DNA from: Chloroherpetonaceae bacterium
Lineage (GTDB): Bacteria; Bacteroidota; Chlorobiia; Chlorobiales; Thermochlorobacteraceae
DNA length: 64,000 nt
NCBI GenBank assembly: GCA_033763895.1
Contig: JANRJQ010000004.1
Coordinates: 607,001-671,000 of the forward strand
Direction: 5' to 3'
The notes beneath the pieces were generated by a model, which did not search any database, was not told where the DNA came from, and worked only from the letters and a program-made list of their open reading frames with translations. Below, piece by piece: positions 16,695 to 61,300 of the stretch. The number at the start of each line of letters is the position of its first letter. Position 1 is the first letter of the stretch. A program made the translations under genes and the position numbers.

Positions 16695-18455
16695 ATGAGT
16701 CTGACACTCATCGATTTTTCAGTTATCACCGTTTACATTCTCATCAGTCTTTTGGTAGGGTTACTTTATACCAAAACCGCTTCCAAGAATACCACGGAGT
16801 TTTTTCTTTCGGGCCGTAGGCTGCCTTGGTGGCTAGCGGGAACCGGAATGGTAGCCACAACCTTTGCAGCTGATACTCCGCTTGCCGTGGCGGGAATCGT
16901 GGCACGAAACGGCATTGCAGGAAATTGGATTTGGTGGGCTTCTGTATTTGGTGGAATGCTTACGGTTTTTTTCTTCGCGCGGCTTTGGCGAAGAGCTCAG
17001 ATCCTTACCGATTTGGAATTTATTGAACTTCGTTATAGCGGTGAAGCCGCAAAGTTTTTGCGTGGTTTCAAGGCGCTTTACCTTGGGCTTTTAATGAATG
17101 CCATTATTCTGGGGTGGGTAAATTTGGCGATGTACAAAATCATCAAGATTATGCTCCCTGCGGTCAATACCGAATTGGTTATTACTGCGCTTGCTTTTAC
17201 TACGGCTTTTTACTCAGTTCTCTCAGGCTTATGGGGAGTTACGGTTACAGATGCCGTTCAATTTGTAATTGCAATGTTTGGCTGTATTGTGCTAGCAGTG
17301 CTTGCGCTTCACCACCCTACGGTAACGGACTCGGGTGGACTTATGAAAATTCTTCCCGATTGGATGTTTCAATTTTTACCTCGTCTTTCAGAAGCGGCTC
17401 CTTCGCCTGATGTTTCGGGAATTTTTGAACTTACGGCGATGGGTTTTCTTGCTTTAGTGGCGGTTCAATGGTGGGCGAGTTGGTACCCGGGTTCAGAGCC
17501 GGGCGGCGGCGGATATGTCGCACAGCGTATGATGTCGGCTAAAGATGAAAAGCATTCACTTTTTGCGACTCTTTGGTTTATCGTTGCCCATTATTGCGTT
17601 AGGCCTTGGCCTTGGATTATGGTGGGGCTTGTCAGCGCGGTACTTTATCCTCACCTTCCGCCGGAAAGTAAAGAAGATGGTTTTGTTTATTTGATGCGAG
17701 ATTTACTTCCAGCGGGTTTAAGAGGCCTATTAATTGCCGCTTTTCTAGCTGCATATATGTCAACCCTTTCTACTCATCTGAATTGGGGGACGAGTTATAT
17801 CCTGAATGATTTTTACAGGCGTTTCTTTAAGCCCGATGAAACTGAGAAACATTACATTTTTGTATCCCGAATTTTTACCGCGCTTCTTACGCTCTTTTCG
17901 CTTTTCATCACTTTTTTTGTTCTTGATACCATTCGTGGGGCTTGGGAATTTATTCTTCAGTGTGGTGCAGGTGTTGGCTTTGTTTTGATTTTGCGTTGGT
18001 TTTGGTGGCGGCTCAATGCGTGGTCTGAAATCACAGCGATGATTGCTCCAATTTTTGCGTATATCGTTTTTTCGTTGTTGCTTAAAATTCCCTTTCCAAA
18101 TTCCCTTTTTTATATTGTTTCATTCACGATTTCCGCAACTCTCATTGCAACATTTATCACGAAGCCGGATAGCCGTGAACATCTAATTAACTTCTACCGT
18201 CGAACTCGCGTCGGCGGCATTCTATGGTATGAAATCTCGAAAGACTTGCCCGAAGTTCAATCAGATAAAGATTTTTTCAGATTGTTTATCGATTGGATTT
18301 TGGGTTGTTTGATGGTGTTTGCATTTCTATTTGCAATTGGGAAATTTATTTTTGGTCAAGTCATCTTCGGTTCAATTCTTCTTTTTATTGGGATTTGTTC
18401 AGCCGCCGGTATTTATTATGATTTTAATCGCCGAGGTTGGATGAAATTTGATTGA
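16695..18455 (+). CDS. Sodium:solute symporter (SSS family)
   Basis: Integral membrane Na+-coupled symporter, 586 residues and about 13-14 helices, the usual size for the SSS family. The first helices contain SVITVYILISLLVGLLYTK and the FFLSGRRLPWWLAGTGMVAT motif that follows helix 1 in SSS proteins; FAADTPLAVAGIVAR lies in the sodium-site helix, and the mid-protein AAFLAAYMSTLSTHLNWG has the Ser/Thr-rich sodium site. Transported solute unknown; Bacteroidetes/Chlorobi carry several such paralogues. Start ATG at 16695 is supported by the conserved N-terminus. Convergent with the DCC gene, 3 bp apart. Confidence 0.88.
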   Translation: MSLTLIDFSVITVYILISLLVGLLYTKTASKNTTEFFLSGRRLPWWLAGTGMVATTFAADTPLAVAGIVARNGIAGNWIWWASVFGGMLTVFFFARLWRRAQILTDLEFIELRYSGEAAKFLRGFKALYLGLLMNAIILGWVNLAMYKIIKIMLPAVNTELVITALAFTTAFYSVLSGLWGVTVTDAVQFVIAMFGCIVLAVLALHHPTVTDSGGLMKILPDWMFQFLPRLSEAAPSPDVSGIFELTAMGFLALVAVQWWASWYPGSEPGGGGYVAQRMMSAKDEKHSLFATLWFIVAHYCVRPWPWIMVGLVSAVLYPHLPPESKEDGFVYLMRDLLPAGLRGLLIAAFLAAYMSTLSTHLNWGTSYILNDFYRRFFKPDETEKHYIFVSRIFTALLTLFSLFITFFVLDTIRGAWEFILQCGAGVGFVLILRWFWWRLNAWSEITAMIAPIFAYIVFSLLLKIPFPNSLFYIVSFTISATLIATFITKPDSREHLINFYRRTRVGGILWYEISKDLPEVQSDKDFFRLFIDWILGCLMVFAFLFAIGKFIFGQVIFGSILLFIGICSAAGIYYDFNRRGWMKFD

Positions 18456-49895: not shown

Positions 49896-51113
49896 TTAGG
49901 GGATTTTAGTCACAGGCATATCGTGCGAGAGGGTGAAATTGTTTTCTACGATAACCTCATCCCCTGCCTTAATGCCTTCTTTAATTTCTACTTCCGTTTC
50001 ATTTTCTAAACCCGTTACAACATAGTTCCATTTAGCCAATTCTTTTCCATCTGCCGATTTCTCCAAAACAAAAATGATTTTCCTCCCATCTCGCTCCAGA
50101 ATCGCTCTTTTGGAAACCACAAGTTTATTTTCGTATCGCGCGGCTTCGACTAAAACCGTGGCATACATCCCGGGTCTTATCTTGAAGGTCGTATTCGGAA
50201 GTTCGATGACGGCTTTTGCTGTTTTGGAATCGAGGGAAATTACAGGACTTATTGCCGTAACATTGCCGATAAGGGTATCTCCTGAGAAAGCCCCTAAAAT
50301 GATTCGCGCACGGTTTCCAATTTTTATCATCGGAATTTCCTTCTCCAATATGCCTACTTCCACCCGAATCCGTGATAAATTCACAAATTCCATACAGGCC
50401 TGCCCGATGGATAACACTTGCCCTTGAGACACCCGAATACCCGAAGCATAACCATCAAATGGGGCAAGAATGGCTGTATTTTGAAAATTCAATTCCGCAC
50501 GTTGCAGCCGTGTTTTTGCTCCTGAAAATCCGGTTCGTGTTCTGAGTACATCGTCAAGTTTTTCACCGGCTAAAATTTCAGCCAATTCCGTTTCTTCCTT
50601 TATCTTTTCAACTTCTTTGATTTCCACTTCACCTTTTCGAAAGGCTTCAGTTGCGTTCGAAAGTTTTCGCCGAAGTTCATTTAATTTTTCTTTCCATTCC
50701 TTAGAGGAACTTAAACCACCGTAATCATTCCGTTGTGTTGCATAATCGCTTTGGGTTTTCAGGTAGTCATCTTTCGCTTCTTGGAGTGTAATCCGGTATT
50801 CACGGTCATTCAATTTCAAAAGGGTATCACCGGCGCGGAAATATTGCCCTTCTTTTGCATCTAAGCGTTGGAGTTCGGCAGCAATTCGAGCGGATATTTG
50901 CACCCGTTGAATGGCTTCACATACTCCAGTTGCGGTTACCGATTGAATTAACGCTCGTTTACGTGCTTGCTCTGTTTTAACCTTTAGGGGTTCAATTCGA
51001 ATCTCGGGAAGAGCTGTCTCGGTTTTTGGTGTACGCTCCGTTTCTTTTGAACAACTTAAAACCACAATAATCAGAATAGTACCAATCAAATAACGAAGTA
51101 ACTGAGATCGCAT
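49896..51113 (-). CDS. RND efflux periplasmic adaptor lipoprotein (MFP family)
   Basis: 405 residues. Lipobox IVVLSC (Cys21) predicts a lipid-anchored adaptor. The order is typical of AcrA-like proteins: lipoyl-like half (RISARIAAELQRLDAKEGQYFRAGDTLLKLND), coiled-coil hairpin (~120-190), second half-lipoyl (PFDGYASGIRVSQGQVLSIG), beta-barrel and membrane-proximal domains ending GIKAGDEVIVENN. It precedes the RND pump and bridges it to an outer-membrane channel that is not encoded here. Confidence 0.93.
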   Translation of the reverse strand: MRSQLLRYLIGTILIIVVLSCSKETERTPKTETALPEIRIEPLKVKTEQARKRALIQSVTATGVCEAIQRVQISARIAAELQRLDAKEGQYFRAGDTLLKLNDREYRITLQEAKDDYLKTQSDYATQRNDYGGLSSSKEWKEKLNELRRKLSNATEAFRKGEVEIKEVEKIKEETELAEILAGEKLDDVLRTRTGFSGAKTRLQRAELNFQNTAILAPFDGYASGIRVSQGQVLSIGQACMEFVNLSRIRVEVGILEKEIPMIKIGNRARIILGAFSGDTLIGNVTAISPVISLDSKTAKAVIELPNTTFKIRPGMYATVLVEAARYENKLVVSKRAILERDGRKIIFVLEKSADGKELAKWNYVVTGLENETEVEIKEGIKAGDEVIVENNFTLSHDMPVTKIP

Positions 51114-51482
51114 AATGAACTTGACAAAAGAGGGTTTTCAGGTGTTACTAGTTTTGTGTTTACTTATAAGATAAGGGGATATTGGAATAATTTATAAGAG
51201 AAAATTCAATTGCTTCCTAATGACTTTTCATATCATTATCCTTGACTTAATATATTCAACCTTAAGGAGTTGGTATCCGTTTCTTTGGGAGTAAAACGAT
51301 ATACAAATACCCCCATAGCCATAAGCACCCCATTTCTCACCAACGACCAACCTGAAAGCGGCTCTTGCCACAATTTTCAATAAAGTCCAAAAATAATTTA
51401 TTAAAATGATTTATTAAACTCAATTTGTCTGAATAAGATAAAACTTCATGATTTTCACAGAAACACCAATATTCAATTGACC
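51114..51482. other. Gap containing the 3' remnant of a MauE-like gene
   Basis: 369 bp. Apart from the remnant at 51236-51373 (listed separately) it holds AT-rich DNA, the adaptor-gene upstream region, and no intact gene. Confidence 0.6.
51236..51373 (-). pseudogene. 3' remnant of a MauE/DoxX-like gene
   Basis: The minus strand encodes 45 residues starting LWQEPLSGWSLVRNGVLMAM and continuing GVFVYRFTPKE, which align with the end of the intact protein at 54122 (LWEESLSGWALVRNALLIAM, AVYVYRYSPKV). A TGA lies two codons before the matching Leu, and the ~125 preceding codons including the CGCFG motif are missing. Position matches the intact copy: just after the redoxin gene. It is a decayed third element of the duplicated cassette. 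Confidence 0.82.
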
Positions 51483-52064
51483 TTATATTTTGGCACTTAA
51501 TATTTCTGTTTGATATTTATCTAAAATTTCCTGAGTTTTATTTCTATCGTTCATATCGCCAATATAAAGTTTATAAAGGTTCTTTTTCTCAAAAATCAGT
51601 ATAGCAGGAGACCACTTTAGTTTCAGCGAATTATATAATTTTCCGTTTTCGTCATAATATATAGCTCCTTTATAACCAATCACTTTTAATTCTTGTTCTA
51701 ATTTCAACTTACTTCTTGGTTTACTTATGATTAATGAGAAAATGAATTTTTTATTATATTGATTGCTAAATTTTTCCCAATCATTTAGTTCAAGACCAAG
51801 ACATTCTCTGCAACCCTCGTTAATATTATCACTATATACAAATAAAATCTCTCTGCTCCCATCCCCAATTTCAAATTTATTACCGAATTTATCAATTAAT
51901 TTTAATGAATCAATAAACTCTTCTTTATAAGATAAAGAATTTGTATTGAATTTACTTTCAATATCTATCTCACTTGTTTCTACAAATGTATTTCTATTTA
52001 ACACATTGAAAAGTGTATAAATAATTAATAAGAGAGAGAGAATAATATAGATAGTATTTTTCAT
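51483..52064 (-). CDS. Membrane-anchored thioredoxin-like protein (cassette copy 1)
   Basis: 193 residues, ATG overlapping the propeller stop as TGATG. One N-terminal helix (residues ~4-20) anchors it; the rest is a redoxin-like domain with a CxxC site in EGCRECLGLE (about residues 84-87) and the cis-Pro loop WSPAILIF. Topology suggests a periplasmic redoxin. Together with the MauE-like neighbour it resembles MauD/MauE pairs that make disulfides in exported proteins. Its own MauE partner gene is the remnant at 51236. Confidence 0.75.
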   Translation of the reverse strand: MKNTIYIILSLLLIIYTLFNVLNRNTFVETSEIDIESKFNTNSLSYKEEFIDSLKLIDKFGNKFEIGDGSREILFVYSDNINEGCRECLGLELNDWEKFSNQYNKKFIFSLIISKPRSKLKLEQELKVIGYKGAIYYDENGKLYNSLKLKWSPAILIFEKKNLYKLYIGDMNDRNKTQEILDKYQTEILSAKI

Positions 52065-53146
52065 CAATGGATTTTAATTTTACAAATTGTAATAATTCGG
52101 TTATCAGGTAAATCACTTGATTCAAAAAATAATAGATTTGTTTTCTTTTGCACAGCAATAAGTGTGCCATCAGTTTTGAATTCCTTGATTTTTTTACCAT
52201 CTATTGTAAACAGTTCAATATAATTTTCTGCACTAACAAAAGAACCGGATTTTACCGATTCAATATTATGCCTTGAAAGAGAACGAACTATCAGTGAATC
52301 GGTCAAGAAATGCACACCAGTATTATAAAATATTTTTGTGTTTACTTGATTCCAAAATTCTTCCGTTGGTTTTGCGTTTTCAAGATCACTTATTATATAT
52401 TTTCCTTCAATTTCAGGATATTTGTATTCAAATATATTATCACGGTAAATATTTCCAATTGAAATGTCAGGAGATTGTGAGTACACAATTACAAAATCAC
52501 CAAAATTATTTATATCTAAAAATGATGACCCATCTAAGTATTTAAACTTTTCATATTGTAGAGGATACTTTCCAAATCTTTTTTTAATGTTACCACTTGT
52601 ATCAAAAATAATACAGGAATTAGACGCACTTTTACTTTCACCGTTAAATTCATAATCCCAAAAGCCTGTTGATAAAATAGAATTAACATCAATAAACTTT
52701 GTATCACCACCTATAGGTCTTATTCCATTGATAAAAATACTTGTTTTCAGTTCTTTTCCATTATTATTAAAAAGCTTAAATGAGTAAAATCCTACATCAC
52801 CCACAATTACTTTATCATTAAACAAGGCAAAACTCCTTGGAGTTCTTAAATTTAAAGGACCATTTCCCTTACTAAACATTGAGTTAACTAAACCTCCATT
52901 AAGATTATAAATTTTTATGTCCGATGCTGAATAATCTAGTATATATAGCAGAGAATCTTTCGTAACTAAAGCACCACCTATATATCCTATTGGTTTTGTG
53001 CTTTCTTCTAATTTTATTTTTTTTTCTACTAATAATGCAAATTCAATTTCTTTTTCTGTTGATTTATGTTTTTGATTACAACTGCAAAAAAGTATTTCTA
53101 TTAGTATCAATGCAGCTAAGCTTATGATATTTAACTTACTATTCAT
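52064..53146 (-). CDS. Six-bladed beta-propeller lipoprotein (cassette copy 1)
   Basis: 360 residues. Lipobox LFCSC near residue 23 predicts a lipoprotein. Repeated propeller motifs: LYILDYSASDIKIYNLNGGL, KGNGPLNLRTPRSFALF (the GxGPxE/L-type link), VGDVGFYSFKLFNNNGKEL, and FTIDGKKIKEF. These match the 6-bladed beta-propeller families (PF15869/PF17170-like) that occur in Bacteroidetes beside NVEALA peptide genes. Overlaps the redoxin start; preceded by a hairpin and the peptide gene. Confidence 0.75.
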   Translation of the reverse strand: MNSKLNIISLAALILIEILFCSCNQKHKSTEKEIEFALLVEKKIKLEESTKPIGYIGGALVTKDSLLYILDYSASDIKIYNLNGGLVNSMFSKGNGPLNLRTPRSFALFNDKVIVGDVGFYSFKLFNNNGKELKTSIFINGIRPIGGDTKFIDVNSILSTGFWDYEFNGESKSASNSCIIFDTSGNIKKRFGKYPLQYEKFKYLDGSSFLDINNFGDFVIVYSQSPDISIGNIYRDNIFEYKYPEIEGKYIISDLENAKPTEEFWNQVNTKIFYNTGVHFLTDSLIVRSLSRHNIESVKSGSFVSAENYIELFTIDGKKIKEFKTDGTLIAVQKKTNLLFFESSDLPDNRIITICKIKIH

Positions 53147-53155
53147 ATTTAATAT

Positions 53156-53190
53156 TTTAAGCAGGTTAACATATTATTAACCTGCTTAAA
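53156..53190 (-). terminator. Hairpin between peptide and propeller genes (copy 1)
   Basis: A perfect 14-bp inverted repeat (TTTAAGCAGGTTAA / TTAACCTGCTTAAA) with a 7-base loop in the 51-bp gap. It may partly terminate transcription after the peptide gene or protect its 3' end. Confidence 0.7.
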
Positions 53191-53197
53191 TTTTATT

Positions 53198-53395
53198 TTA
53201 TTGATTGCCATTTGATTGATGTTGTCCACATGAAATACTTCCACCCTTTCCACAATGATGATTTGGGTTAGACTTGTAACAGTATTTTGGCTTGCCACTA
53301 TTTGCTTTTGCATCAGTAATTGTAGTTAAATTAACTACTAAAGCTAAAGCTACTGTTCCTAGAAACACATATAAACTGAAATTATTCTTTTTCAT
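53198..53395 (-). CDS. Secreted NVEALA-like Cys-containing peptide 1
   Basis: 65 residues. Signal peptide (MKKNNFSLYVFLGTVALALVV, cleavage likely after DAKA) followed by a mature part of about 33 residues: NSGKPKYCYKSNPNHHCGKG and so on, with three Cys, several His/Gly and the ending SNGNQ. The N-terminal signal ending and the small size recall the NVEALA (PF14055) family of Bacteroidetes secreted peptides. It shares [DN]-x-[GT]-KPK after the signal and the C-terminal GNQ with peptide 2. Its own strong promoter lies 50 bp upstream. Confidence 0.75.
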   Translation of the reverse strand: MKKNNFSLYVFLGTVALALVVNLTTITDAKANSGKPKYCYKSNPNHHCGKGGSISCGQHQSNGNQ

Positions 53396-53426
53396 CGTTA
53401 TGACAATTTAATTATTTGTAAAACAC

Positions 53427-53479
53427 TTCCTTCACATGAGGAATTACACCATTTTACTTTTTCTTTTTCTTTTTGTCAA
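53427..53479 (-). promoter_or_regulatory. Promoter and dyad for peptide 1
   Basis: Minus-strand TTGACA (53479-53474), 17-base spacer, TAAAAT (53456-53451). A dyad TTCCTTCA-N2-TGAGGAA with one bulge occupies 53427-53443, right at the expected transcription start. The -35 box contains the stop codon of the upstream AraC-like gene. The same arrangement recurs at copy 2. Confidence 0.72.
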
Positions 53480-54048
53480 GGAAAATCGTTTTCGGTTTTC
53501 TCTTTCGGTTTTCTCTTTCGGTTTTCTCTTTCGGTTTTCTCTTTTGGTTTTGCATTTCGGTTTTCTTTTATCATTCTCCTTTTCTTCCCCTCTCTTTCAT
53601 TATCGCCTATCTTCAATCTATCCTCTATCTCACTGAGCTTTTGCTCTAAAATCAGTTTTGCTCTTTTGGGGTTAAACTTTACGGTCTCGGGTGTACAGCT
53701 AAATACGCGGGCTGCAAAAGCGTTAAATGCACTATCACTCTTAAACCCAAGCATTTTTTTAAGGAGAACACATTTTATCTCTCTTTCACTCATTATTCGT
53801 TTTATGAACGCATCTCCTCGTGCAAGGTCTAAGAGGACTTTTGGCGTACAATGAAAGGTTGTCGCACAATACTGCCAAAAGTGAGAAGGGCTACTCTCAA
53901 GTGCCTTTGCCACGCGTTCTACTTTATATTCCGCTTCTTGCGCTATCCTAAAAAGGTTGTTTAGAGATATTCCACTCTTTGCAGTGGTGAGTTGGGTCAG
54001 TTGACTTGTAATGCTTCGTGAGCGTACCGGAGAAACAGTGGGTTTCAT
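53476..54048 (-). CDS. AraC-type double-HTH protein with repetitive tail (copy 1)
   Basis: 190 residues from the ATG at 54048 (the frame opens earlier at a TTG, but the paralogue aligns here). Residues ~38-78 (EAEYKVERVAKALESSPSHF) and ~88-122 (VLLKKMLGFKSDSAFNAFAA, then SCTPETV) fit the two helix-turn-helix units of AraC/XylS regulators; there is no ligand domain. The last ~45 residues are charged and repetitive (KPKEKTERENRKR), encoded by a 13-bp repeat. Likely a DNA-binding regulator of the peptide promoter that overlaps its stop codon. Confidence 0.7.
   Translation of the reverse strand: MKPTVSPVRSRSITSQLTQLTTAKSGISLNNLFRIAQEAEYKVERVAKALESSPSHFWQYCATTFHCTPKVLLDLARGDAFIKRIMSEREIKCVLLKKMLGFKSDSAFNAFAARVFSCTPETVKFNPKRAKLILEQKLSEIEDRLKIGDNEREGKKRRMIKENRNAKPKEKTERENRKRKPKEKTENDFP
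53493..53570 (-). repeat. 13-bp minisatellite in the AraC-like gene, copy 1
   Basis: Plus-strand unit CGGTTTTCTCTTT: four perfect copies (53493-53544) and two degenerate ones (to 53570). Because 13 is not a multiple of 3, the encoded peptide repeats every 39 bp (KPKEKTERENRKR), and gain or loss of one unit would shift the frame near the C-terminus. Confidence 0.9.
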
Positions 54049-54121
54049 TGAGGTAAATTTATTTTGGTGTTTGAGTTGATTCCAAAACTTAATAAACCTC
54101 AAGGAAATATGCAAGTCATCT

Positions 54122-54637
54122 CTAGAACCTTTCTCTCATTCTGAATGGGCTATCGCTTTTATCGATTTCTACTACCTTAGGTGAATAGCGATAAACATAA
54201 ACCGCCATTGCAATTAAGAGAGCATTTCTCACCAGAGCCCAACCAGATAGCGACTCTTCCCACAATTTCCCGAAACAGCCGCAGGTAAGGAATTCACTTG
54301 CTGGATTGGATAGAAGTATTGCCGTAGAAAGGCTAAATAAACCAAAAAGTGCAATTAAAAGAAGTAAAGCACTTCTTGTATAAAGATTTAGCCATAAGAG
54401 GAGAGCAAGCAGCAATTCGGCGAAAAGGACAGCAAGGGTAATTAACTCAAAAATTAGTGCTCCATTTTCAACTATCACTTTAGTATCGGCTTTAGAATAC
54501 CCAATGCTTTCTGCGGATATGATAAATATCGTTTTCACCTGAAGCTCAAAATTCGAAAGGTCTTGAATTTTTCCGATGAAAGAAAGGACAAGAACTAAAG
54601 CAAGGAAGTATTGAATAATTTTAGGGAGATATTTCAC
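54122..54637 (-). CDS. MauE/DoxX-like membrane protein (intact copy)
   Basis: 171 residues, four hydrophobic helices (about 7-25, 60-80, 82-110, 135-155). The motif CGCFGKLW after helix 3 is the MauE signature (CGCFG); MauE in the methylamine-utilisation cluster acts with thioredoxin-like MauD on disulfides of an exported subunit. Directly follows redoxin B (32 bp). The tandem copy of this gene is only a 3' remnant. Function here is inferred. Confidence 0.8.
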   Translation of the reverse strand: MKYLPKIIQYFLALVLVLSFIGKIQDLSNFELQVKTIFIISAESIGYSKADTKVIVENGALIFELITLAVLFAELLLALLLWLNLYTRSALLLLIALFGLFSLSTAILLSNPASEFLTCGCFGKLWEESLSGWALVRNALLIAMAVYVYRYSPKVVEIDKSDSPFRMRERF

Positions 54638-54669
54638 ATTTTTTTGAACACCTTATTGTAAAATTTTAT

Positions 54670-55212
54670 TTAAAATCTCATGTTGCTTAAAAGCGTATCA
54701 AATTTCTGCTGCATTTGCTTTGTCAATTCTCTATTATTTATATCAGGTACATATCGCATTATTTCTCGACCGTTAGTTACAAAAATAACACTAGGATAAT
54801 CTGTAATACCTAGAATTTTAGCTATTTTTGTACTATCAATCAAAATGGAATAAGTGATACCGGCAACTTCAAGTTCACGAATTGCTCTTTTTGGTCTTGA
54901 TGTTTCTAAAAGTAAAAAAATCTTATTTACATTATTTATCGAATCCTTTTTTAACCATTTTTGCCAATCTTGTATTTCCTCATAGAGACATAAATTACAA
55001 CCATTATCGTCTGAACCAATAATAAGAACAGAAACATTTTTAGGTAAGTTAATGGGAATTTCTTGAAGCCATCGACTAAAATTAAAATGGGATTGACTAG
55101 TTTCAATTTTTCTACCTTCAATACTTTTCGCATTTAAAATAATCCTTAAAGTAAGGATTATAGAGAATGTAAAAAAGAAGACAAAACCGAAGACCAATAA
55201 GTTATTCTTCAC
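54670..55212 (-). CDS. Membrane-anchored thioredoxin-like protein (cassette copy 2)
   Basis: 180 residues, GTG start with AAGG upstream. N-terminal helix (about 5-25), then a redoxin domain with CxxC in NGCNLCLYEE and a YPSVIFV cis-Pro loop; RPKRAIRELEVAGITYSILID fits the following strand-helix. Paralogue of the redoxin at 51483 (the same GC-xx-C core, RPKR/RSKL region). Between the propeller (8 bp gap) and MauE genes, giving MauD/MauE-like order. Confidence 0.75.
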   Translation of the reverse strand: MKNNLLVFGFVFFFTFSIILTLRIILNAKSIEGRKIETSQSHFNFSRWLQEIPINLPKNVSVLIIGSDDNGCNLCLYEEIQDWQKWLKKDSINNVNKIFLLLETSRPKRAIRELEVAGITYSILIDSTKIAKILGITDYPSVIFVTNGREIMRYVPDINNRELTKQMQQKFDTLLSNMRF

Positions 55213-55220
55213 ACCTTATT

Positions 55221-56258
55221 TTATTTTTCAGTAATTTTTACCCTATAAAAGCCAAGTATTCTATTATCCGGCTCATCAGACTCCTCTATAACAAGTTGAC
55301 CGTTATAAATGCATCTCAATACTCCATTTATTAGAGTTTCTCCAAGATATTCACCTTTTGTAGTAATAAACTCAACCCGTTGTTCTGCTCGTTGTACAAA
55401 GCTTCTATTTTTTGAGGATGCTTCTGTACTAATATGTGTAGCTCTTGCAATAATTGTATCATTTACAAACCTAACAGTGTAATTCATCCGTTCCTCTCTA
55501 TTTATTTTGATACTTTCTTTTAGACTCATTTTACTTTTTCTTTTTTCAGAAATATATTTTTCTTTGAGATTTTCAAACGAATATTCATTAACTATACCTG
55601 TTTCTAAATTTCCTACAAATAATGATGGTGATTTCAGAAAAGTCACTACAAATTCGTTTTTTTCATTACAATCATGCCAATTCTCCTTTCCAAATCCAAA
55701 TTTTTCATAACCACTGGGTAAGAAATTAAATTTAGATAACACTATACCATCCTCATTTATTACAATTAAATTAGTATTAATATCTTTCGGATTCCAAAAT
55801 GATGTTAAAATTAAATTACCATTTTTATCAATAGAGATATAACCGTGAACAACCATAAACCCATCATCCTTAATAAATATAGATTTAGAATCCTCCTTTT
55901 TACTATTTAATGGAATTATCTTTAATCCCTTACCTCCTTCTACAACTATTAGCCTATTATTAATGCTGTCAATACAAAATTCTGATGCTTCTTCTATTTC
56001 ACAAGGGCCCGATCCTTTCTTCCCATACACATTCAATAACTTACCTTCAGTTGAGTATACGTTAACTGTTGACGCGGATTCGTCTAGCAGAAATACTTCT
56101 TCATTTTTTGATATTAATACACTTGCTAACGAACCAATCTTACGTTCCTTTTCGTTCAATATAATTTTATTTGTATTCGTTAAGCTAATATTATGTTTAC
56201 TTTTATTTTCCTTACAGGAAACGATTAAACAAAATATAATTACAATGTATCTTTTCAT
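55221..56258 (-). CDS. Six-bladed beta-propeller lipoprotein (cassette copy 2)
   Basis: 345 residues. Lipobox FCLIVSC near residue 15. Propeller repeats: VFLLDESASTVNVYSTEGKL, KKGSGPCEIEEASEF, VVEGGKGLKII, NGNLILTSF. Closely parallels the propeller at 52064 in blade order (ISKNEEVFLLDESAS against VTKDSLLYILDYSAS). Starts 39 bp after peptide 2 across a GC-rich hairpin. Confidence 0.75.
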   Translation of the reverse strand: MKRYIVIIFCLIVSCKENKSKHNISLTNTNKIILNEKERKIGSLASVLISKNEEVFLLDESASTVNVYSTEGKLLNVYGKKGSGPCEIEEASEFCIDSINNRLIVVEGGKGLKIIPLNSKKEDSKSIFIKDDGFMVVHGYISIDKNGNLILTSFWNPKDINTNLIVINEDGIVLSKFNFLPSGYEKFGFGKENWHDCNEKNEFVVTFLKSPSLFVGNLETGIVNEYSFENLKEKYISEKRKSKMSLKESIKINREERMNYTVRFVNDTIIARATHISTEASSKNRSFVQRAEQRVEFITTKGEYLGETLINGVLRCIYNGQLVIEESDEPDNRILGFYRVKITEK

Positions 56259-56271
56259 GTGATTAATTAAA

Positions 56272-56293
56272 TAGGGGGAATTTAACCCCCCTA
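56272..56293 (-). terminator. Hairpin between peptide and propeller genes (copy 2)
   Basis: A 7-bp stem TAGGGGG / CCCCCTA with an 8-base loop, in the short gap after peptide 2. Its sequence differs from the copy 1 hairpin although the position is the same. Confidence 0.68.
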
Positions 56294-56296
56294 ATA

Positions 56297-56488
56297 CTAT
56301 TGATTTCCGGTTACAATTATCTCGTCAACACAATATTCATTGCTTCCGCTCGAGCAAGTATCTTTCGTGAAATTCCATCTTTTTTTTGGCTTTGTTCCGT
56401 CAGCTTGTGCTGACTGGATGTCAATTAGTGTTGAACTTGCTAAAGCAAACAGCACCGCGATAGAACTGAGAAAAATCTTCTTTTTCAT
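56297..56488 (-). CDS. Secreted NVEALA-like Cys-containing peptide 2
   Basis: 63 residues from the ATG at 56488. Signal peptide MKKKIFLSSIAVLFALASST with likely cleavage after SAQA; mature part of about 33 residues, DGTKPKKRWNFTKDTCSSGS with two Cys and ending VTGNQ. Same layout and GNQ end as peptide 1, but the middle differs. The longer frame to 56527 is rejected because the conserved MKKK signal start is at 56488 and the promoter lies upstream at 56543. Confidence 0.75.
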   Translation of the reverse strand: MKKKIFLSSIAVLFALASSTLIDIQSAQADGTKPKKRWNFTKDTCSSGSNEYCVDEIIVTGNQ

Positions 56489-56518
56489 ATTTGTTAATAT
56501 TTTAGTTATAAAATAGTC

Positions 56519-56571
56519 TTCCTTCACTTGAGGAATTACCTCATTTTACTTTTTCTTTTCTTTTTTGTCAA
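56519..56571 (-). promoter_or_regulatory. Promoter and dyad for peptide 2
   Basis: Minus-strand TTGACA (56571-56566), 17 bases, TAAAAT (56548-56543), then dyad TTCCTTCA-CT-TGAGGAA at 56519-56535. The stop codon of the AraC-like gene (56568-56570) sits in the -35 box. Identical architecture to copy 1. Confidence 0.72.
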
Positions 56572-57128
56572 GGAAAATCGTTTTCGGTTTTCTCTTTCGG
56601 TTTTCTCTTTCGGTTTTCTCTTTCGGTTTTCTCTTTCGGTTTTCTTCTATCATTCTCCCTTTCTTCCCTTCTGCTTTCGTCATCGCTTTTTGGCAACTTA
56701 TCTAATATTTCATTTATCTTTTTAACCAAAATTTCTGTTGCTAATTTGGGGTTTAGTTTCACTTGTTCAGGTGAGCAGTGAAAGACTCTGTAAGCAAACG
56801 CATGAAATGTGCTTTCGCTTTTAAAGCCAAGAAGTTTTTTCAGCATCACACACTTCACTTCGCTTTGCTCCTGTATAAGATTTATGAATTTACTTGCACG
56901 TGCAAGGTCGATTAGTGCCTTTGGCGCGCTGTGATAATGCGTGGCGCAGTACTGCCAAAAGTGTTTTGGGCTAACATCCAGTTTTTTAGCAACGCGTTCC
57001 ACCTTGTATTCCGCTTCGTGTGCCCAGCCAAACACGGTATTTAATTCCAAATGGCGCGAGGCCGTCTCGGGTTGTTTTCTGTTGTTATTTTTCTGAAATG
57101 CGTTAACGGGAGTAAGTGAGGATAGCAT
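56568..57128 (-). CDS. AraC-type double-HTH protein with repetitive tail (copy 2)
   Basis: 186 residues from the ATG at 57128. HTH units around EAEYKVERVAKKLDVSPKHF and VMLKKLLGFKSESTFHAFAY/HCSPEQV; about 60% identical by eye to the protein at 53476, with the same DNA before the ATG (AAGTTTTGGAA.CAAC.CA). Charged repetitive tail ending KPKEKTENDFP. Lacks an effector domain. Probably regulates its own cassette. Confidence 0.7.
   Translation of the reverse strand: MLSSLTPVNAFQKNNNRKQPETASRHLELNTVFGWAHEAEYKVERVAKKLDVSPKHFWQYCATHYHSAPKALIDLARASKFINLIQEQSEVKCVMLKKLLGFKSESTFHAFAYRVFHCSPEQVKLNPKLATEILVKKINEILDKLPKSDDESRREERENDRRKPKEKTERENRKRKPKEKTENDFP
56585..56649 (-). repeat. 13-bp minisatellite in the AraC-like gene, copy 2
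   Basis: Plus-strand CGGTTTTCTCTTT: four perfect units (56585-56636) and one degenerate (56637-56649). The 118 bp from the dyad to the end of unit 4 are about 96% identical to 53427-53544, with five mismatches counted by eye. Confidence 0.9.
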
Positions 57129-57220
57129 AGAGGTTGATTTGTTTTGGTTGTGTGTTGTTTCCAAAACTTAAGAAAAGGCAATGAATTTTACAACTCACTT
57201 TGGTTAAGAACTTTACGTTG

Positions 57221-58279
57221 TTACTTTCGCTTCACTTTATACATATTTATCTGTGGATTCACTTCCCTATTCCCATTTGTTTGTCTAAATTCGGAATAAA
57301 CATATCCGTTTTTGGCAAAAAGAAATCGTTCTGTTAGAATTTTCGTCTCGCAAATTGTTTTTCCTTTTAAATCAATGACATCGTAATACTCACCCTCTTT
57401 ATTCACAAAGTGCCTTAGAAGAGCGTTTTTATCAATGAGATAAATCCCCATCATCCAACTGCTTTGATTGCGCGCAATCTCTTGAAAATCTTTATGTGTA
57501 GTTATTTTATCGGGGTAATCTTTTACAGGTTCAATAAATTCCTTTGGCTTGTTATCTACTATATATAATTTAGTCCCATTTTTATCATAAACGTGAATCT
57601 TATGTGACCCAGAAAAACCCACTATTATATTCCCATTTTCTTCAAGAGCATGAGCATTTTGAATAGGCCTCCTGCGACTAATGTTCTTAAATTCATCATC
57701 TAGAGCAATTTTCTTTTCTACGATTTGTTTTCCTTGAATAAGCAATAAGGGCTTTTCTGAATCTGAAATGATATAACTAAATAAATCTCCTTTTTGATTA
57801 AAAATGAATGAGTGTCCATTGTTGATGTTACTATATTCATATTTTTCAATAAATTTTAAGTTTGAATTAAAACGGTACAAGTACCCAAGGTGATTAATCG
57901 GTGATTGAACATAGATGTCATCATCTTTATTAATTATAATTCTTTCAGGTGCAAAAAGTTTCCCTCTTCCGGGGTCGATTGCATCAATTTCTTGATCTGA
58001 TATTTCATTAATCAATTCACCATTTTTATTAAGCAGAAAAACTTTCTTTGTTTTACTATCTGCAAGGGCTATCATCCCTTTAGAATTGATATTAATTGCG
58101 GTTATCTCACCGATAAGGATTTCCTTATTATTTTTTCCTTTGAATGTAATTGTTTCTATTAAGAGAGGGATACATTGCGTTTGACCATAAATAACGTCAT
58201 TAACTGTAAATATGCTTAAAGTAAGAACCAGTATTTTAATCTGATGATTAGTGAAATAAAATATACTTTTGTATTTCAT
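57221..58279 (-). CDS. Third beta-propeller protein, unpaired
   Basis: 352 residues from the ATG at 58279 (the frame is open to 58330). Signal peptide region IKILVLTLSIFTVNDVIYGQ, no clear lipobox. Propeller motifs: MIALADSKTKKVFLLNKNGEL, DIYVQSPINHLGYLYRFNSN, IHVYDKNGTKLYIV. More distant from the two cassette propellers. Lies upstream of copy 2 with a 92-bp gap; no peptide, redoxin or MauE gene of its own. May belong to the cassette or be a separate acquisition. Confidence 0.65.
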   Translation of the reverse strand: MKYKSIFYFTNHQIKILVLTLSIFTVNDVIYGQTQCIPLLIETITFKGKNNKEILIGEITAININSKGMIALADSKTKKVFLLNKNGELINEISDQEIDAIDPGRGKLFAPERIIINKDDDIYVQSPINHLGYLYRFNSNLKFIEKYEYSNINNGHSFIFNQKGDLFSYIISDSEKPLLLIQGKQIVEKKIALDDEFKNISRRRPIQNAHALEENGNIIVGFSGSHKIHVYDKNGTKLYIVDNKPKEFIEPVKDYPDKITTHKDFQEIARNQSSWMMGIYLIDKNALLRHFVNKEGEYYDVIDLKGKTICETKILTERFLFAKNGYVYSEFRQTNGNREVNPQINMYKVKRK

Positions 58280-58350
58280 AAATAATTTGTAATATATAAT
58301 TAAATAAAAAGTCAACCATTTAACTCTCACAAGTTCATTTGCTCCAACTT

Positions 58351-61300
58351 ATGCATCACTTTCTCAAATCTCTTTTGCATCGGCCGGTAGCCCTTTCTAT
58401 GGTTGGATTTTTGATTTTGGGATTAGCTATTTTCTTTGCCATTCGCTTACCCATATCGACAGCACCCGAAGCGGAGTTTCCCCGTCTCTCCATACGAACT
58501 TCTTGGAGCGGTGCTTCTCCTGAATTAATGGCCGAGCAGGTTACAGCTCCAATTGAAGAGGTTGCGTCTTCGGTTCGCGGAGTTAAAAAAGTGAATTCTA
58601 CAACCCGCGAAGGCTCGTCGGTCGTTCAGTTAGAATTTGAAAAGTCAATTGACCAGAATCTGATAAAAATCGAATTGATGGAACAACTTGAAGCCTTGTG
58701 GCAAAAGCTCCCGGCGGGAGTCTCACGCCCGGCTTTAGAAAAATTTGTGCCAAAAGAATTTAGAGATTTACAAGGCTTTTTAGTTTATCAATTTTATCCC
58801 AAAAGTAATTTATCCACCTCTCCGGCATTAATCAAAGAGACGATTGACCAATTGCTGATTCCGGCACTGAGTCCTATTGATGGAATTGGAGAGATGACCC
58901 TCTTTGGTGCTGCTGAAGAACTCATTGAAATTGAGTTAGATGAAGCACTAATGAAATCTTTCGGAGTTTCCATTTCTGATGTAGAAAATGCCCTCTATGC
59001 CTCATCAGATAAAAAAACGTATGGCACCATCATTGAAAATAAGCACACCCTTTCTCTGCGGTCTCATCAGGAATTTCGCAATCTTCGAGAACTTGAGCAA
59101 TTGGTAATTAAATCGACCTCCGATACATCTAAAGAGAGAATCTCCCGAGCTATTTTATTGGGCAGCTTTGCAAAAATTAAAATTAAAATGCCCGAGCAAA
59201 ATAATTTTTTTCGAATTAATGGAAAAAGCGCCGTAACACTTTATATAAACCGTGAAGCAACTTCAAACAGCTTAAAACTCGCTGATAAAATTCAAGTCAC
59301 TCTTGATCGAATCCTAAACTCTGAATTGACTGACCTAAATTATATTAAAGCCCTTGATCGCACTGAACCGCTTCGCCGTGAACTGAGTCATTTACGAGTT
59401 GATTTTTTTCTTGCTTTAATTCTGCTTTCTCTCGTGCTCTTTTTATTTCTGCGGAATCTTCATTTTACTTTCATTGTATTGCTTAACATAGCATTCTCAA
59501 TTGCCGCAAGCGTCTTAGTTCTTTCTGCGTTAGGATTTAGCCTCAATTTAATCACGATTGCAGGAATGATTCTTGTTTTTGGCATTTTAACCGATAATGC
59601 CGTTGTGGTAATGGATAATATCGAAAGAAAACTTACATTGGATAGAAATCGCGATGCCATTATTGCCGCGGCTTCCATCGAAGTTTTTCTCCCTGTTCTT
59701 GCTTCAACACTCACCACCATCGGGGCGCTTTTACCGGTTTTATTTCTCCCGGATGAAATACGCCTTTATTTTATTGAATTTGTAACCTCAATTTCTGTCT
59801 CTCTCCTGTCATCTCTTCTCATTTCATTCACCCTTATTCCTACACTTGTATATCAATTTGCAAAAGATCGGCAAATTCATCATTCATTACCATATAATTT
59901 CAAATTTGATATTTATAAATTGGTTTTGATTTATATCTTAAATCGTCCGAAGCGGTTTATAACTCTTACTGCTCTATTAATAGGTTTTCCGATTTATCTT
60001 TTACCCGAAAAAATAGGCGATGATCGAAGTATAAATCCAACTTTATTTGAGAAATCCTATAATTCAACGTTAGGAAGTGACCCTTTTTTAACCGTTAAGC
60101 CGTTTCTTAATTACGTTTTAGGCGGATCTTCATATTTATTTTATCATTATGTCTCACGGGCTGAATTCTTTGGTTTTGGAGAAGAAACTTTCCTAACTGT
60201 GGATATAACTGCCCCGCAGGGAACAAGCCCGGAACGGCTGAACGAAATTGCACGCTGTTTTGAAATTCCACTCTCAGAATATTCAACAGGTATTTCAAAT
60301 TTCACTACAGAAATTAATACAACTGAATCAACCATCACGGTTTCATTTTCAAAAGATGCGCCTGCCAATTTCCCTTATATTCTGAAAGGGCATTTAACCG
60401 CGATTGCTGCACGTGTTGGCGGGGCGAATGTTGGAGTTTATGGGTTTGGACCGGGCTTTTACTCCGGTGGAAATGAAACTTCAACCTATCGCGTGAAAAT
60501 TACAGGATATAACTACGAGGAATTGAAACAACTTTCTCAAAAGTTTAAGGGTGAATTAGAGAAAAACCCCCGTATCGATAATTGCAAAATTGATAAGGCG
60601 TATGGTTTTTATGAGGTCGGGAAAGAACTCGCTTTATCAATAAATCGAGAAAAACTATTTCATGAAAATATCTCTTTAACCAATTTATTTCAAAACATAA
60701 GAAAGAAAAGCGACGATGTTTTTTCTTATCAAATGGTTCATTTAAATGGACGCATTTTTCCTGCTGAACTCACTCTCTCTCAAGCCCCGCGATTTTCCGC
60801 AAAGGATTTTTTGAATCAATCTTATGTTGATAATGAGAAGCAAAGCCGTTTCGCCGATTACTTATCAATAAAAAAGCAATCCGTTTTATCCCATATTTTA
60901 AGAGAAAATCAGCAGAATCTACGTTGGATTACTTTTGACTATAAAGGTCGATATGATTATGGGCAGCGTCATCTTGAAGCAGTTGCATCACGATTTCCCT
61001 TTCCGCCGGGTTATACTATTAATTTAAAGCAGGAAGGATTTTTCCTTTTTTCAGAAAGGAATTATATGGATTTTATTTTTGCAGTATTATTATCTCTTTT
61101 TATTGTTTTTATTGTTTCAGCTGCGCTTTATGAATCCTTTTCCAAACCATTTTTAATTATTTTGGCAGCACCGATGGCTCTTATTGGTGTATTTTTAAGT
61201 TTTTATTTTTTTGATGCGAATTTTGGCAGGGGCGGATATATTTCTTTATTGCTTTTAGGTGGAATTACGGTAAATAATTCAATTATTTTAATTGATCGTC

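Follow-up and report, generated by a model that had tools for sequence, protein, structure and literature searches.

A stem-loop kept in position but not in sequence between small peptide genes and propeller genes: a candidate intercistronic element favouring the peptide

In E. coli, 26 of the 34 operon pairs with a stabilised 5′ gene have a 3′ end at a stable hairpin without a U-tract, with malE as the model case and the gene needed in excess coming first, as set out in the excerpted text of Dar and Sorek (PMC5927463); the excerpts also report tatA as stabilised, with no stem description for it within them, and the reference list names puf of Rhodobacter among the intercistronic 3′-protective stem-loops of differentially decaying operons. 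Here we analyse a window of 64,000 nucleotides (nt) from a Chloroherpetonaceae bacterium (assembly GCA_033763895.1, contig JANRJQ010000004.1, positions 607,001 to 671,000), in which two consecutive cassettes on the minus strand each carry a stem-loop between the gene for a small cysteine-containing peptide and the gene for a propeller protein. With malE-malF and menB of E. coli these loci share a stable stem after the 5′-most gene, mostly no full U-tract and a kept position; they differ in that 17 of the 26 E. coli stems lie inside the downstream coding region (same excerpts of PMC5927463), whereas here the stems lie in the gap, and in that decay was measured there, whereas the present arrangement is known from sequence alone. 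As to the genes, the closest described systems are the NVEALA (PF14055) and DUF6520 (PF20130) peptides beside DUF5128 (PF17170), with which the window cassettes share a short signal-peptide-like open reading frame (ORF), cysteines in the mature part and a propeller directly downstream; they differ in that neither window peptide matches NVEALA at E ≤ 10 and only peptide 2 matches DUF6520, below the cut-off.

The two hairpins and the genes on either side of them, with lengths in amino acids (aa), are as follows.

53156..53190, minus strand: intercistronic hairpin 1, with 14-nt perfect arms, a 7-nt spacer and 16 pairs when folded
56272..56293, minus strand: intercistronic hairpin 2, 7-8 bp, GC-rich, with the tail TTTAATTA
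53198..53395, minus strand: peptide 1, 65 aa, signal-peptide-like start (by eye), 3 Cys, C-terminus GNQ, without a Pfam match
56297..56488, minus strand: peptide 2, 63 aa, signal-peptide-like start (by eye), 2 Cys, C-terminus GNQ, sub-threshold DUF6520 match
52064..53146, minus strand: propeller lipoprotein 1, lipobox by eye, without a Pfam match over the cut-off
55221..56258, minus strand: propeller 2, PF17170 DUF5128 over the cut-off

The initial annotation had described a perfect 14-bp inverted repeat and a GC-rich stem at the same position in both cassettes. Both were found as described, the repeat on the sense (minus) strand and the GC-rich stem folding on that strand as 7-8 bp, and both lie between the peptide stop and the propeller start: hairpin 1 at 7 nt from the stop and 9 nt from the start, hairpin 2 at 3 nt and 13 nt. 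The 51-nt gap of cassette 1 folds at -19.1 kcal/mol against a mean of -4.3 for dinucleotide shuffles (z -7.0), a value matched by none of 500 shuffles, and hairpin 1 is well beyond chance. The 38-nt gap of cassette 2 folds at -14.0 against a shuffled mean of -8.7 (z -2.1), which 14 of 500 shuffles equalled or beat; hairpin 2 is modest alone and draws its weight mainly from its position. The malE-type hallmark, a hairpin right behind the 5′ gene that is more stable than expected by chance, is thus found strongly for hairpin 1 and modestly for hairpin 2 on its own. Four other gaps within or beside the cassettes held nothing comparable (z +0.62 to -1.58), and z ≤ -3 was reached in only 2 of the 26 other same-strand window gaps of 25-400 nt that served as the control. 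Neither hairpin sequence, when checked for the recurrence at other loci that marks a REP/BIME-type dispersed repeat, has a second copy within the window, the stretch covered by this check, and Rfam 15 covariance models at E ≤ 1 over 51000-58500 gave no match at either hairpin; the sole match in that interval, at 55142-55201, is below the gathering score and away from both.

Within the family in which the window lies, Thermochlorobacteraceae of the Chlorobiales, the propeller was found in three of nine genomes (its own twice, G001 twice and G008 once), and a search across the order (98 genomes) returned the same three genomes only. A hairpin occupies the peptide-propeller gap of all five family cassettes, and all five are unlike in sequence, so that the orthologues, in which a missing stem had been named as the contrary outcome, all carry one: the gaps of loci L016, L017 and L018 have z values of -5.9, -4.6 and -7.3, with stems of about 11-13 pairs, the L017 stem being seen in the fold and missed by the hairpin scanner, which accepts loops of up to 12 nt. 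Propeller 1 and the L018 propeller, the closest pair checked, are 48% identical, and the stem sequences in the same gap are unrelated. The peptide gene of G008 (L018 7101-7316, minus strand) looks frameshifted after the signal peptide relative to peptide 1, which looks like either a real loss or a sequencing error.

The same gap was surveyed across the phylum, which we take to be Bacteroidota as delimited by GTDB, where PF17170 was present in 61 of 296 genomes. The first set (loci L029-L165) comprised 180 distinct propellers, each with an upstream stretch of 400 nt or more. Of these, 39 were cases, meaning that immediately before the propeller stood a signal-peptide-like ORF, 35-115 aa long, with at least two cysteines after residue 22; this definition was fixed after hairpins had already been seen in about nine first-set loci, and peptides called as ordinary genes (at least 100 codons) fell into the controls. 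Thirty cases had a testable gap of 25-200 nt, a few of which (e.g. L047) may be false, the peptides having been called by a simple hydrophobicity rule. As many as 20 of these 30 gaps reached z ≤ -3 (median z -4.07), compared with 9 of 92 other same-strand gaps of the same loci (median -0.08; Fisher p 2.8e-9), and a hairpin with a free energy (dG) ≤ -9 was present in 25 of 30 as against 15 of 92. Eight of the nine structured controls precede a propeller, and four of these eight (L059, L092, L120 and L129) follow ORFs of 105-146 aa with 4-10 cysteines that the case rule did not take as peptides. With the case definition frozen, a follow-up over loci L169-L235 yielded eight new cases, seven of them with room, and z ≤ -3 in 4 of 7 compared with 5 of 40 controls (Fisher p 0.018), two of the five structured controls (L169 and L207) also following small Cys-rich ORFs. 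The follow-up overlaps the first set in that G338 and G370 each had another locus there, and its propeller profile had been built from loci of the first set; leaving out L174 and L187 (both from G338, both z ≤ -3) reduces the count to 2 of 5. Both sets pooled give 24 of 37 versus 14 of 132. Conserved position with changed sequence, first noticed in the two window cassettes, thus holds in more species, both in the family and in the phylum sets. That the stems are a chance or mutational by-product without function, as their unconserved sequence and the cassettes that lack one might suggest, is very improbable in the light of the two case-control comparisons.

For covariation, the material consisted of the five family cassettes, whose stems are unalignable, and one close pair in genus G124 (L120/L129), in which the arms are nearly unchanged and the loop is changed; no second cassette copy was found among the 28 genomes of genus G274 at E ≤ 1e-50. 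Convergent gene ends carried a hairpin with dG ≤ -9 in 12 of 70, a figure of little weight since it rests on crude gene calls.

We give an even chance to the reading that the element is an intercistronic stem-loop that would protect the 3′ end of the peptide message, would at times act as a leaky terminator, and would favour the peptide over the downstream products. One polycistronic mRNA would carry the genes for the peptide, the propeller and a TlpA-like protein, in that order, with that for MauE added in cassette 2; as the message is cut or decays from downstream, the stem would block 3′-5′ exonucleases just past the peptide stop, the peptide segment would outlive the rest of the mRNA, and members with a T-rich tail would also stop some polymerases. 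The predicted outcome, on the strength of architecture and precedent, is more peptide than propeller. The 25 strong first-set stems (dG ≤ -9) start a median of 16 nt after the peptide stop (interquartile range 11-24) and end a median of 23 nt before the propeller start (interquartile range 16-34), which leaves little room for a separate promoter in most, and the propeller therefore probably depends on upstream transcription. Since the window stems lie 9 and 13 nt from the start codon, they could also be taken to act chiefly by reducing propeller translation through this closeness; we consider this quite improbable, as the spacing to the start codon is 9-51 nt across the family cassettes and 10-134 nt for the strong hairpins of other loci, and as the first-set spread is greater to the propeller start (standard deviation 19.5) than from the peptide stop (standard deviation 11.4).

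Several results weigh against a protecting stem-loop as a regular part of these cassettes. Nine of the 39 first-set cassettes have a gap of 0-16 nt, too short for a hairpin, and 10 of the 30 first-set gaps with room fail z ≤ -3; L095, with a 99-aa ORF of 6 Cys before the propeller, has no hairpin. A search of the genus of G136 with one peptide gave 13 homologues in 4 of 7 genomes, nine of them read correctly (L240, L243, L244 and L248 were misread), and a significant stem was present in only one of these nine (L236, which is the same cassette as case L140); in L237, L239 and L242 the peptide end is overlapped by the gene that follows, which may or may not encode a propeller. The stem is hence a frequent but not a mandatory feature, and tight coupling of the genes may be accompanied by its loss. 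Further points on the same side concern specificity and termination. Hairpins with dG ≤ -9 are present in 11 of the 26 other same-strand window gaps, several of them resembling ordinary terminators in having T-runs, and this control slightly lowers our confidence in the protecting stem-loop. The 8 nt that follow the stems show a mild excess of T (3.68 of 8 versus 2.85 expected, p 0.004), which favours some termination, with no enrichment further past the stem (2.36).

These last points bear on the proposal that the stem is a leaky intrinsic terminator at which most polymerases would be released after the peptide gene, the smaller part continuing into the propeller. Read-through intrinsic (Rho-independent) terminators share with the present loci the stem-loop in the gap, the T-run of L017 and the T-rich tail of hairpin 2, and differ from them in that most members lack a T-run. 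The 12-bp stem of L017 is followed by TTTTTAAG, with the T-run on the sense strand, and has the look of a genuine terminator; hairpin 2, with T at 5 of the 8 nt past its stem (a partial U-tract), is a borderline case, listed as terminator-like on the minus strand. Other gaps of the window likewise contain terminator-like stems with T-runs, for instance 63301-63272, so that in this genome terminators commonly take the shape of a stem in a gap. By contrast, at least 5 T in the next 8 nt were counted for only 8 of the 25 strong first-set hairpins and 1 of the 5 strong follow-up hairpins, leaving 17 of 25 in the first set with fewer than 5; the stems of L016 and L018, followed by 2 and 0 T, do not look like terminators, and hairpin 1, with 4 G-C among its 14 pairs, has 3 T in the 8 nt after the stem and no U-tract, its T-rich tail lying on the plus strand and not on the transcribed one. 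We therefore regard the leaky terminator as an unlikely explanation, though one to be taken seriously. The listing of hairpin 1 as terminator-like on the plus strand only could further be read as a stem that stops antisense transcription from the other side, which is extremely improbable given that hairpin 2 is listed on the minus strand only and that the L017 T-run is on the sense strand. For hairpin 1, protection is plausibly favoured over termination, and the mixed tails fit stems whose common task would be to form or protect a 3′ end, some of them being weak terminators. Partial termination or mRNA protection, the alternatives offered by the initial annotation, remain the best pair of readings; what the tails add is a lean towards protection as the common function, judged by hairpin 1 and the minority of T-rich tails, with termination plausible for some members such as L017 and hairpin 2.

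More tentatively, and with somewhat less than even confidence, we propose that a stem-loop free in sequence and kept in position is a standing part of Cys-containing peptide/propeller cassettes across the phylum, re-invented at turnover, and that a fixed excess of peptide over surface propeller is selected, which would suggest that the propeller and the thiol proteins have many copies of the peptide to act on or to display. The mechanism is ordinary. In the open-licence literature searched, its recurrent association with peptide-propeller cassettes was not found among the matches listed, no papers on NVEALA or DUF5128 and none on secreted Cys-rich peptide operons with propellers were found, and nothing relevant by title appeared among the matches listed for lantibiotic read-through or the 6-bladed propeller. 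Where peptide sequences have diverged beyond the reach of family models, the hairpin helps to find cassettes from their architecture; it opens a way into a large group of secreted peptides of which little has been described, and is a candidate for programmed mRNA decay outside Enterobacteria. It also leads to the prediction that the abundant product would be the peptide and not the propeller.

Diverse Cys-containing small secreted ORFs stand ahead of DUF5128-type propellers (39 of 180 in L029-L165), and few have any Pfam match: a scan of 32 peptides at E ≤ 0.1 gave one NVEALA and four DUF6520 matches. In L059, the propeller at strand position 18017 is preceded by an ORF of 105 aa that has 10 Cys, no signal peptide and the leader end EIMAGSGCG, and that is followed by a structured gap; its leader presumably resembles those of the double-glycine type. 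In the window, peptides 1 and 2 are 32% identical and nonetheless share the GNQ C-terminus, which is absent from both G001 peptides. The two propellers are 30% identical, and propeller 2 scores 28.4 bits with PF17170 against a cut-off of 22.9.

Each cassette runs in the order AraC-type helix-turn-helix (HTH) regulator, small peptide, propeller, TlpA-like protein and MauE, the last complete in cassette 2 and present only as a C-terminal remnant in cassette 1; the TlpA-like and secreted labels are by resemblance, and signal-peptide-like starts and the lipobox were judged by eye. The remaining features are as follows.

51483..52067, minus strand: thioredoxin/TlpA-like gene of cassette 1, by resemblance, without a Pfam match over the cut-off
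54670..55212, minus strand: thioredoxin/TlpA-like gene of cassette 2, by resemblance, without a Pfam match over the cut-off
54122..54637, minus strand: MauE membrane protein of cassette 2, PF07291 over the cut-off
53476..54114, minus strand: AraC-type HTH regulator 1, upstream of peptide 1, HTH_18 below the cut-off
56568..57164, minus strand: AraC-type HTH regulator 2, upstream of peptide 2, HTH_18 over the cut-off
53451..53479, minus strand: promoter-like TTGACA-17-TAAAAT sequence motif of peptide 1
56543..56571, minus strand: promoter-like TTGACA-17-TAAAAT sequence motif of peptide 2

A 45-aa ORF at 51236-51373 (minus strand) shares 63% identity along 30 aa with the C-terminal part of MauE (54122-54637) and is apparently the MauE remnant of cassette 1; an HlyD/RND efflux pair, so labelled by resemblance, follows that cassette. 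Upstream of cassette 2, a 369-aa gene at 57221-58330 (minus strand) has a propeller-like look and an SGL match below the cut-off; it was unmatched in the propeller 1 search at E ≤ 1, and the interval to the next gene upstream showed no peptide gene. Searches with the propeller and the regulator gave only the two window cassettes in the genome, the peptide search being too insensitive to count cassettes (the peptide 1 query missed even peptide 2).

The TTGACA-17-TAAAAT-like promoter is kept in four peptide gene leaders (53396-53479, 56489-56571, L017 1566-1670 and L018 7317-7410), and the same four carry AATTCC...GGAAG just past the -10 element; in L016 the leader is masked. A further hairpin, at the 5′ end of the peptide message, was considered and rejected, its fold being not convincingly better than shuffles (z +0.69 to -1.61). 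Lastly, the basic tail of both AraC-type regulators is encoded by a 13-nt tandem repeat, at 53490-53566 (about six copies) and 56582-56645 (about five copies), which is nearly identical in both and for that reason suggests a recent exchange between the cassettes.

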